From positions 62,001-126,000 of the forward strand of contig JACRQE010000003.1 of assembly GCA_016222815.1 (NCBI GenBank): a stretch of DNA of 64,000 nucleotides, in the 5' to 3' direction. A program made the position numbers and the translations under genes. Shown here piece after piece: positions 28,498 to 52,922 of the stretch (positions are counted from its first letter, which is position 1; each line of letters begins with the position of its first letter). A model generated the notes under the pieces. It was not told where the DNA came from. It did no database searches and worked only from the letters and a program-made list of their open reading frames with translations. This DNA comes from Candidatus Uhrbacteria bacterium (GTDB lineage: Bacteria; Patescibacteriota; Patescibacteriia; 2-12-FULL-60-25).

Positions 28498-28598
28498 TGT
28501 CGTCCCACGGCGCCTGTCCTCGCGGAGGCGGGGATGACCGGGGGATCCTGCCTAAAGCGTTGCCGCCTGAGATTCCCCGGTTGAACCGTGGAACGACA
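28498..28598. repeat. TGTCGTCCCACGG...CCGTGGAACGACA palindromic repeat, copy A
   Basis: The left arm TGTCGTCCCACGG and the GACCGGGGGATCCTGC segment are mirrored by GATTCCCCGGTTGAACC and CCGTGGAACGACA on the right. Related copies are at 34398, 36479, 46383, 46491 and 46582. Confidence 0.8.
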
Positions 28599-28669
28599 GA
28601 AATAATTGATAAAATGGTCAACCTGCGTTGGAATTAATCCGATTTTATTGCTATCTTATGGTCAAACAT

Positions 28670-34257: not shown

Positions 34258-34397
34258 CGCTCGGCCCTCTGCATTCTGCTGTCGCTAGGTTGTCACGGGA
34301 GAAATTTCGAAAGTATCCCGGCTGTAATGACCTGACGACGGCAGAATCCAGGGGGTCTTTATATACCGCTGCCATATCTTACAAAATTGCGCAAGGT

Positions 34398-34427
34398 AAG
34401 ATTCCCCGGTTGAACCGGGGAATGACA
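34398..34427. repeat. Half copy (B) of the TGTCATCCCACGG palindromic repeat
   Basis: AAGATTCCCCGGTTGAACC followed by GGGGAATGACA matches the right half of copies at 28498 and 46383. The inner CCCCGGTTGAACCGGGG is itself palindromic. It lies in the 192-bp gap between pth and dprA, in which no gene was seen. Confidence 0.7.
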
Positions 34428-34449
34428 ATTTTTGTTTTTATTCGTGACC

Positions 34450-36478: not shown

Positions 36479-36556
36479 TGTCATCCTCCGGCTCGACCGG
36501 GGGACCTGGATTCCCCGGCCGCGCCACGTTCGACGTGGTTAAACCGTGGAATGACA
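36479..36556. repeat. TGTCATCC palindromic repeat, copy C
   Basis: TGTCATCCTCCGG and GACCGGGGGACCTGG are mirrored by AAACCGTGGAATGACA, with an inserted GCCACGTTCGACGTGG. It lies between der and the LCP gene. Confidence 0.75.
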
Positions 36557-46382: not shown

Positions 46383-46460
46383 TGTCGTCCCACGGCATGA
46401 CCGGGGGACCTTACCTGTAGCGCTTGTTGTAAGATTCCCCGGTTGAACCGTGGAATGACA
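46383..46460. repeat. TGTCGTCCCACGG palindromic repeat, copy D
   Basis: TGTCGTCCCACGG and GACCGGGGGACC are mirrored by GATTCCCCGGTTGAACC and CCGTGGAATGACA. It is the first of two and a half copies that fill most of the 282-bp gap before comF. Confidence 0.85.
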
Positions 46461-46490
46461 GTTTGTTCAAAATCAATACTACGTTCACTC

Positions 46491-46563
46491 TGTCATCCCA
46501 CGGCTTGACCGGGGGATCCTGCATTCGATTTGTAAGATTCCCCGGTTGAACCGTGGAACGACA
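46491..46563. repeat. TGTCATCCCACGG palindromic repeat, copy E
   Basis: A complete copy: TGTCATCCCACGG and GACCGGGGGATCCTGC on the left, GATTCCCCGGTTGAACC and CCGTGGAACGACA on the right. Confidence 0.85.
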
Positions 46564-46581
46564 TTGTTACTCTGAATTGCT

Positions 46582-46612
46582 TGTCATCCCACGGCAAGAC
46601 CGGGGGATCTTA
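46582..46612. repeat. Left half copy (F) of the TGTCATCCCACGG repeat
   Basis: TGTCATCCCACGG plus GACCGGGGGATCTTACC without the mirrored right half. Confidence 0.75.
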
Positions 46613-47393: not shown

Positions 47394-47483
<90 letters not shown>

Positions 47484-47814
47484 ATATTTCTCGGCAAAGC
47501 CTCGATCATAAACTCGAGCTTCGCGTTCTCCTGGGCTCGTTTTCTCGCCCGTTCAGCCCTGCGCCTGCTCGGGCCGAACCCACTCAGCCACCTCTCCATA
47601 TTTCTCGTCCCGTCTTACGGGACTCAATCATAAACTCGAGCTTCGCTTTCGCTCCAGCGTATCTACTGGATGCCTTCGTAAGGCGCACCAAAAATACCTG
47701 TTCTGGGCAGAAAAATCAAGATGCTCGCGATTTATTGGAATAAGCAGGTTGTTCCGTCCATTTCTGTTAGATCTTGTTACTGTCCAGGCAATTGATGGGG
47801 TATAATGGTGTCAC
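47484..47814. other. 331-bp gap with a duplicated tRNA-Ser 5' end and promoter
   Basis: No gene is seen here. Bases 47580-47607 repeat exactly the 28 nt at 47466-47493 (first 18 nt of tRNA-Ser plus 10 nt upstream). Bases 47627-47646 repeat the 20 nt at 47505-47524, which carry a minus-strand -10-like TATGAT. The spacer differs (a GTCCCGTC/ACGGGAC hairpin in the second copy). The rest (47650-47800) shows nothing recognisable until the tspO promoter. Confidence 0.75.
47801..47806 (+). promoter_or_regulatory. -10 box implying a leaderless tspO mRNA
   Basis: TATAAT after GGGG ends 8 nt before the ATG at 47815. Confidence 0.65.
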
Positions 47815-52047: not shown

Positions 52048-52554
52048 ATGGCATATTCCAAAGAATTCCTGGATCACATGGCTTCATCCCAGGATGCTTT
52101 CGTTTGGGAGGCGCCGGCGCACGAAGAAGTGGACCGCGGACCCAGATGGTTCCTTTGGATGTCGCTTGTGGCTTTGCTCCTGGCTGCCTATGCCATCTAT
52201 ACGGCTAACTATTTGTTCGCTTTCATCATCCTGCTCACGGCCATCATCCTGGTCTTCGCCGGCAACGAAAAACCGCGCAAAGTCCTGATCCAGATCGGCA
52301 ATAACGGCGTGGTCGTGGACGGCCGCCTGTATCGTTTCGATGAATTGGCCAACTTCGCCATCATCTATTACCCCCCGCAAACCAAGGTTTTGTACGTCGA
52401 ACCCAACGGCGTGCTCCAGGCCCGAATGCGCATCGAGCTCGAGGATGAGGACCCGGTCGCCATCCGCGCCCACCTTAAGAAGTTCCTCCAGGAGGACCTG
52501 GACTTGCAAGAAGAGCATTTTTCTGATATTGTCGGCCGGCTACTGAAACTGTAG
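52048..52554 (+). CDS. Membrane protein with two helices and a cytosolic domain, unknown function
   Basis: The 168-aa protein has two adjacent helices (about 34-70, WFLWMSLVALLLAAYAIY and LFAFIILLTAIILVFAG). A soluble domain (75-168) begins KPRKVLIQIGNNGVVVDGRLYRFDEL. That start looks like a PH-like, membrane-associated domain, as in other small bacterial membrane proteins. No enzymatic motif is seen. It sits directly before the tRNA-Arg locus. Confidence 0.72.
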   Translation: MAYSKEFLDHMASSQDAFVWEAPAHEEVDRGPRWFLWMSLVALLLAAYAIYTANYLFAFIILLTAIILVFAGNEKPRKVLIQIGNNGVVVDGRLYRFDELANFAIIYYPPQTKVLYVEPNGVLQARMRIELEDEDPVAIRAHLKKFLQEDLDLQEEHFSDIVGRLLKL

Positions 52555-52571: not shown

Positions 52572-52669
52572 GCGGCCGTAGCTCAGCTGGATAGAGCGTC
52601 CCGACGCAGCGTCGGGAAGGTAGACGTTCGAATCGTCTCGGTCGGGTTCCTGAAAAGTTTCACTTTCAT
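52572..52669 (+). pseudogene. Degenerate tRNA-Arg-like repeat unit 1 (98 nt)
   Basis: The D-arm and T-arm are identical to the functional tRNA-Arg at 52796. The anticodon arm is replaced by TCCCGACG-CAG-CGTCGGGA, an 8-bp stem with a triloop, so no normal 7-nt anticodon loop remains. The 3' end reads CGGTCGGGTTCCTG instead of CGGTCGCACCA, so CCA is missing. A conserved tail (GAAAAGTTTCACTTTCAT) follows. Confidence 0.8.
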
Positions 52670-52795
52670 GCGGCCGTAGCTCAGCTGGATAGAGCGTCCC
52701 GACGCAGCTCAGCTGGATAGAGCGTCCCGACGCAGCGTCGGGAAGGTAGACGTTCGAATCGTCTCGGTCGGGTTCCTGAAAAGTTTCACTTTCAT
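52670..52795 (+). pseudogene. Degenerate tRNA-Arg-like repeat unit 2 (126 nt)
   Basis: It is identical to unit 1 except for an internal 28-nt duplication of part of the D-arm and the left anticodon arm (AGCTCAGCTGGATAGAGCG plus the following bases). The same 3' tail joins it directly to the real tRNA-Arg. Confidence 0.8.
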
Positions 52796-52872
52796 GCGGC
52801 CGTAGCTCAGCTGGATAGAGCGCCTCCCTGCGAAGGAGGAGGTCAGACGTTCGAATCGTCTCGGTCGCACCA
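52796..52872 (+). tRNA. tRNA-Arg (GCG)
   Basis: A 77-nt cloverleaf with encoded CCA. The stem-loop CCTCC-CTGCGAA-GGAGG gives anticodon GCG, which reads CGC and CGU. Most bacteria use ACG modified to ICG for this box. Confidence 0.92.
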
Positions 52873-52874
52873 TG

Positions 52875-52904
52875 CGATAAACCCGCCATCAGGCGGGTTT
52901 ATCG
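52875..52904. terminator. Bidirectional terminator after tRNA-Arg
   Basis: A perfect 13-bp stem CGATAAACCCGCC/GGCGGGTTTATCG with loop ATCA. It also lies just past the stop of the minus-strand gene at 52923. Confidence 0.85.
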
Positions 52905-52922
52905 TTTGTCGTTTTTATCACT

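Follow-up and report, generated by a model that had tools for sequence, protein, structure and literature searches.

Tandem broken tRNA-Arg copies in a Candidatus Uhrbacteria genome as probable remnants of a tRNA-gene-invading GIY-YIG element

Immediately upstream of a tRNA-Arg(GCG) gene in the window, a 64,000-nucleotide stretch of a Candidatus Uhrbacteria genome, lie two tandem tRNA-like units. With a probability of about 0.6, we consider them to be broken copies of this tRNA gene left by a palindrome-bounded selfish element that invades tRNA genes and carries a GIY-YIG nuclease gene. The observations that carry this interpretation are the anatomy of the broken copies, their recurrence at many tRNA genes, the association with the nuclease and the complementary splitting of tRNAs, together with a patchy distribution in which some sites are empty, and switches from one tRNA species to another. 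No GIY-YIG ORF was found at the tRNA-Arg(GCG) locus of the window; the locus is thus a remnant and not a complete element, and its origin is deduced from relatives. Taken alone it is modest, and it is the element family that is of real interest.

The two units, of 98 nt (unit 1, 52572-52669, + strand) and 126 nt (unit 2, 52670-52795, +), were delimited from the sequence and by repeat search exactly where the preliminary description had placed them. They precede the intact tRNA-Arg(GCG) (52796-52872, +, identified by ARAGORN and Rfam), which is followed by its intrinsic terminator (52874-52905, +, from the terminator scan). Unit 1 runs from the 5′ acceptor strand through the D-arm, a palindrome, the T-arm and the acceptor up to position 72 (C72G) into a 26-nt tail; unit 2 has the same layout plus a 28-nt internal tandem duplication. 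The D- and T-arms of both units match the tRNA exactly, and a 19-nt palindrome with a stem of 8-9 bp, TCCCGACGCAGCGTCGGGA, substitutes for the anticodon arm of 17 nt (28-44 in the linear numbering of the 77-nt tRNA, 27-43 in the canonical one) at 52599-52617 (+) in unit 1 and 52725-52743 (+) in unit 2. The variable loop is one base short, C72 is changed to G and the CCA is missing. The earlier outline of copied D- and T-arms and most of the acceptor, a hairpin in place of the anticodon arm and an absent CCA end is therefore accurate, and the internal duplication it reported in unit 2 is real (52680-52735). The first 28-nt copy, CTCAGCTGGATAGAGCGTCCCGACGCAG (52680-52707, +), begins at TAG^CTCAG in the D-stem, a position at which the family's other elements and palindromes likewise interrupt tRNAs, and the second copy (52708-52735, +) stops within the loop of the palindrome. 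The tail, TTCCTGAAAAG, had been called conserved. This holds between the two units, where it is identical, but the tails of relatives differ and in several loci consist of the duplicated tRNA leader. In the repeat search the locus appeared as two 120-nt copies with 99% identity, which excludes chance.

Neither unit has the 7-nt anticodon loop with a readable anticodon, or the complete acceptor stem with CCA, of a functional tRNA. Both fall below the threshold of the Rfam tRNA model, and the ARAGORN call of unit 1 as tRNA-Leu(cag) is a mislabel. What the locus does show is a broken copy with a palindrome in a loop, beside an intact tRNA, the arrangement by which we recognise the element.

The promoter scan of the + strand at this locus gave no candidate above its cut-off. 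A weak putative promoter below the cut-off, TTGCAA-17-TATTGT (8/12 matches, 52504-52532, +), sits in the 3′ end of the upstream gene and is, by eye, conserved in relatives. If used, it would give one transcript containing both units and the tRNA. Since the 26-nt tails leave no space for a further promoter, the units are probably part of the tRNA-Arg(GCG) transcript. The upstream gene (52049..52554, +) codes for a membrane protein of 168 aa without an NCBIfam family; its synteny with tRNA-Arg(GCG) is kept throughout the family, and it served as the anchor for the empty-site comparison described below.

The window contains a second remnant. The tRNA-Ser(TGA) gene (47394-47483, −) is accompanied by partial copies of its 5′ end and leader at 47580-47607 (−) and 47623-47650, truncated in the D-arm and then continuing into inverted repeats. 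Dispersed palindromic repeats, GTAAGATTCCCCGGTTGAACCGGGGAATGACA and TGTCATCCCACGGCTTGACCGGGGGATC, occur in the window at 28567-28602, 34396-34431, 36479-36506 and 46383-46609, and repeats of this kind also surround L041, a GIY-YIG gene of the same genome with no tRNA link.

The substitution of an anticodon arm by a palindrome recurs throughout this genome (1.3 Mb in 8 contigs). In a census made on separate stretches of it, 13 of the approximately 46 tRNA genes adjoin partial copies of the same tRNA. Two tandem units with the anticodon arm replaced by a palindrome lie upstream of tRNA-Thr(GGT), one such unit accompanies each of tRNA-Ile(GAT) and tRNA-Asp(GTC), tRNA-Arg(CCG) has a unit on either side, and three tandem units follow tRNA-Ala(GGC) downstream. 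The palindromes at these five tRNAs are 18-20 nt long and mostly of the class YCCCGRYGNNCRYCGGGR. At tRNA-Val(CAC) and tRNA-Phe(GAA) only the first 13 nt are left, followed by a nearly identical palindrome, CCCCGATGTCGCTCCGCTCTTCGGGG. The pattern YCCCGRYGN0-4CRYCGGGR has 27 sites in the genome, and those outside the tRNA-like units mostly resemble intrinsic terminators. The palindrome is accordingly not a private repeat of the units and, since palindromes of this class serve as terminators elsewhere, need not belong to the element, although we take it that they may represent its own ends. At tRNA-Arg(CCG) and tRNA-Arg(TCT) of the same genome a small GIY-YIG gene is present between the broken and the intact copy. 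L041 and another GIY-YIG gene, L042, have no tRNA nearby, and no tRNA link is known for these two or for L046. Two broken tRNA-Thr copies (G000:C8:178268-178436) score 46-47 bits in the Rfam tRNA model and would count as tRNA genes in annotation pipelines.

Orthologous tRNA-Arg(GCG) loci in other Candidatus Uhrbacteria and further Patescibacteria were recognised by the conserved upstream gene. Three relatives, the congeners G001 and G003 as well as G004, share the order broken copy, intact tRNA, terminator, GIY-YIG gene and broken copy, and in G032, like G004 a further member of the family, the order is broken copy, GIY-YIG gene, intact tRNA and broken copy. Many other relatives show the empty site, with the upstream gene followed by tRNA-Arg(GCG) after 0-22 nt. 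The units vary strongly among congeners. Six tRNA species (Arg, Thr, Ile, Asp, Ala and Val) show the exact exchange of anticodon arm for palindrome, with relatives providing cases at Ala and Val. The load likewise varies: 12 of 12 sampled tRNA genes are affected in the congener G003 (a few of these loci having been picked for holding palindromes), 2 of 15 in the congener G001 and 0 of 13 in G021, which belongs to a different genus. Searching the genome and its relatives for further tRNA-like units, as the preliminary description had recommended, showed that such units form a family and recur beside many tRNAs. The suggestion of a young expanding repeat family comes close to the comparison, inasmuch as the units differ between congeners and recur at many tRNAs.

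Two loci carry less typical traces. In L125 (G025) the stretch from the upstream gene to tRNA-Arg(GCG) holds two copies of a 40-nt leader enclosing a heavily decayed piece starting GCGGTCGTA, possibly an older remnant, and in L020 the tRNA-Arg at 1501-1577 is followed by a tiny tRNA-like hairpin with a CCA end, TCGAGTGGTACCAGCTCAGCTGGTCAGCTCGACCACCA, located before the terminator.

The nuclease encoded in these elements is a protein of 80-100 aa consisting of a single GIY-YIG domain, which scores above the cut-off for Pfam PF01541. Y5, Y16, R26, H30 and E62 are invariant in the family (the genes of relatives and of the C6 locus of this genome), and the GIY-YIG catalytic residues (Tyr, Tyr, Arg, Glu) are kept as in SegB-type nucleases. 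Among solved structures, the nuclease profile comes closest to UPF0213 proteins and the structure-specific nuclease SLX1. A profile built from six tRNA-Arg-linked nucleases retrieved 68 loci in 34 relatives and the genome itself, a few of which are the same locus counted twice; a tRNA gene lies within 250 nt at 47 of them, nearly always on the same strand, and a partial copy of the adjoining tRNA is present at 30. With a wider profile, the nuclease was detected in 104 of 145 genomes sampled across the phylum. Among 69 checked loci, 42 are no more than 250 nt away from a tRNA gene, in every case on the same strand, and these tRNAs represent 15 isotypes; a partial copy of the adjoining tRNA accompanies 31 of the loci. 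By our own arithmetic the density of tRNA genes (46 per Mb) would predict such proximity at about 4% of loci. Both profiles were made from tRNA-linked members, so that the percentages describe this subfamily and not all GIY-YIG genes.

In a nuclease tree built on 85 columns only, sister genes are found at different tRNAs (Ser and Asp, support 100/92; Ala and Glu, 100/96; Met and Thr, 98/95), and a clade of the window's genus (97/96) covers Arg, Ala, Pro and Val. Four Trp-linked genes group together. Because sister nucleases reside at different tRNAs, with the intact copy always matching its own broken copy, the intact copy has to be a local duplicate. The same pattern disfavours the notion that the tRNA is cargo passed between elements. 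A phage origin was also considered and set aside, as only four weak matches to Listeria phages were obtained.

Some arrangements depart from the common one. L297 has two tandem copies of a GIY-YIG gene with the 3′ half of tRNA-Pro, the nuclease having been amplified along with half a tRNA. L320, L330, L332 and L348 are GIY-YIG genes without a nearby tRNA that are flanked, in the manner of small transposons, by inverted repeats such as CCCCGTAGAGAATTTTAGAA ... TTCTAAAATCTTCTACAGGG. A tmRNA gene occurs about 1 kb or less from the GIY-YIG gene in L337 and L338, and in the former a tmRNA-like or tRNA-like 3′ end, GGGGTTCAATTCCCCCCAGCTCCACCA, lies immediately upstream of that gene. tmRNA may therefore also be a target of the element.

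The broken copies themselves often form two exactly complementary halves of one tRNA, namely 1-17 and 18-77 for Pro, 1-22 and 23-77 for Val and 1-36 and 37-77 for Ile, and Gln is split between 34 and 35. Most splits and palindromes fall in the D-loop or the anticodon loop, and occasionally one lies in the T-loop. Among 70 broken copies, perfect stems of 7 bp or longer occur in 46 compared to 4.2 expected from shuffled sequences, and the shuffles led us to reject chance palindromes. Lesions differ from copy to copy: in some the anticodon arm is intact and palindromes occur elsewhere, and many are cut down to 13, 18 or 35 nt. At tRNA-Ile (L256) and tRNA-Thr(TGT) (L264) of G003 a complete tRNA is found inside the anticodon loop of its own split copy, bounded by the inverted repeats CCTGCCCGCC... 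and ...GGCAGGCGGG and with no nuclease gene.

We propose the following sequence of events. The autonomous form of the element would encode the single-domain GIY-YIG nuclease of 80-100 aa, which would cut tRNA genes within the D-loop or the anticodon loop, both of them hairpin loops. Repair would then duplicate the tRNA and insert palindrome-bounded DNA that may or may not include the nuclease gene. Selection would retain only those outcomes with one complete tRNA together with its promoter and terminator, and the displaced copy, with a palindrome in its loop, would cease to be a gene. Recombination between copies could later amplify or delete parts. At the window locus neither the nuclease gene nor a downstream broken copy is present, and the upstream broken copy has been tandemly duplicated. 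The element would be tolerated because one intact tRNA copy remains.

Cleavage of tRNA genes and the repair route are suggested by analogy with SegB of phages T4 and T6, a free-standing GIY-YIG homing endonuclease whose gene likewise adjoins tRNA genes of many isotypes. SegB is the best precedent, since it cuts inside tRNA genes and drives the tandem amplification, dependent on homologous recombination, of a segment that includes an entire tRNA (PMC13096335). The tandem copies at Arg, Thr and Ala and the doubled nuclease gene in L297 fit an amplification of this type. In our own reading, the SegB motif RAWTSGAAC is the complement of the T-loop, GTTCSAWTY. In contrast to SegB, the element described here is chromosomal, occurs throughout the Patescibacteria with a nuclease reduced to a bare domain, is often inserted inside the tRNA gene and leaves broken tRNA copies plugged by palindromes.

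The units might instead be functional, anticodon-less tRNA mimics that are co-transcribed with the tRNA and act as decoys, sponges or processing aids, an explanation we regard as unlikely. It would fit the intact elbow formed by the D- and T-arms, the cloverleaf-like fold of about −31 kcal/mol, the probable presence of the units in the tRNA transcript, the precision of the anticodon-arm swap at several tRNA species with loss of C72 and CCA, and the presence of broken copies in two genera for Thr and in three congeners for Asp. However, the broken and intact Thr copies share species-specific substitutions in the D- and T-loops (CTCAGTTGG and TTCGAAT in G001, the T-loop TTCAAAT in G000 and G003), so that they evolve in concert or are recent. 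Conservation of the arms, which had been read as evidence against old decay, thus does not speak for function; it reflects recent copying or gene conversion, not constraint on the broken copy. Many broken copies of 13, 18 or 35 nt cannot take a tRNA fold at all, and most relatives lack copies at the same locus. Concerted evolution at Thr and the short copies led us to reject a functional decoy as first choice; the decoy, sponge and processing-signal roles proposed earlier gained no support, and an RNA role of the units is possible but unsupported. Ordinary tRNA pseudogenes produced by replication slippage or unequal crossing-over, without any mobile element, would account for the tandem units, their identical tails, the 28-nt internal duplication and the lack of a nuclease gene at the window locus. 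This explanation also seems improbable to us, as it does not explain why several tRNA species show the same palindrome swap, why a nuclease gene recurs in this position in relatives and why complementary half-tRNAs stand on either side of an insert. The nuclease-bearing orthologous loci of G001 and G003 already go far towards refuting it.

Palindromes at loops could also be scars of fold-back repair of double-strand breaks in tRNA genes, with no mobility involved. In yeast, short templated inverted duplications arising at breaks by fold-back are documented (PMC11724301). The location of the palindromes at loops and the different palindrome sequences of two species at one locus (Val-CAC in G000 and G003) would agree with this. 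Local fold-back would not, however, produce near-identical palindromes at different tRNAs of one genome, as is the case for CCCCGATGTCGCTCCGCTCTTCGGGGCAGG at Phe and Arg-CCG and for the nearly identical palindrome at Val, and we judge this origin quite improbable. That the architecture is an assembly artefact is very improbable indeed. Short-read assemblies can mis-resolve tandem tRNA repeats, and some contigs do stop inside a repeat (L013, L039), but assemblies made independently by separate projects (JAVHLR010000001, JAJYXM010000016 and JACQMO010000029) show the same architecture, two of these cases lying within megabase contigs.

The invading element favoured here has features of other known systems. 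REP/REPIN sequences with their RAYT transposases and MITEs resemble it in their short scattered palindromes and apparent association with a nuclease gene, yet the nuclease here is of the GIY-YIG type, not a Y1 transposase, and insertion occurs into tRNA loops. The tRNA-linked tandem repeats at E. coli tyrT, each with a piece of that tRNA, are much like the three units downstream of tRNA-Ala(GGC), but the units described here are mostly upstream, palindrome-swapped and recurrent at many tRNAs. Integrases with tRNA attachment sites also target the tRNA gene and leave an intact tRNA; they restore its 3′ end, whereas here the whole tRNA is duplicated, and an unsystematic look revealed no integrase beside the loci. 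UPF0213 and SLX1 proteins, though close to the nuclease profile, have housekeeping or unknown roles, and structure-specificity of the nuclease described here is only putative.

More broadly, we tentatively suggest, as a possibility we rate somewhat short of even, that ‘break-and-rescue’ elements bounded by inverted repeats and mobilised by a minimal GIY-YIG nuclease enter the D- and anticodon loops of tRNA genes throughout the phylum. With an intact tRNA within or beside the insert, an essential gene could be invaded without killing the host; L256 and L264 in G003 are the clearest cases. Literature searches on bacteria that covered few subscription journals and no preprints turned up no account of such a system. 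Annotation calls for caution, since some broken copies, unit 1 and the Thr copies among them, can be taken for genuine tRNAs. The nuclease may recognise hairpins, as this interpretation would predict. The tRNA genes of one of the largest bacterial phyla have apparently been struck repeatedly by a minimal nuclease element that appears to evade the cost of breaking an essential gene. This would constitute a chromosomal parallel to the SegB-driven amplification of tRNAs and suggests a route by which selfish DNA may colonise reduced genomes.
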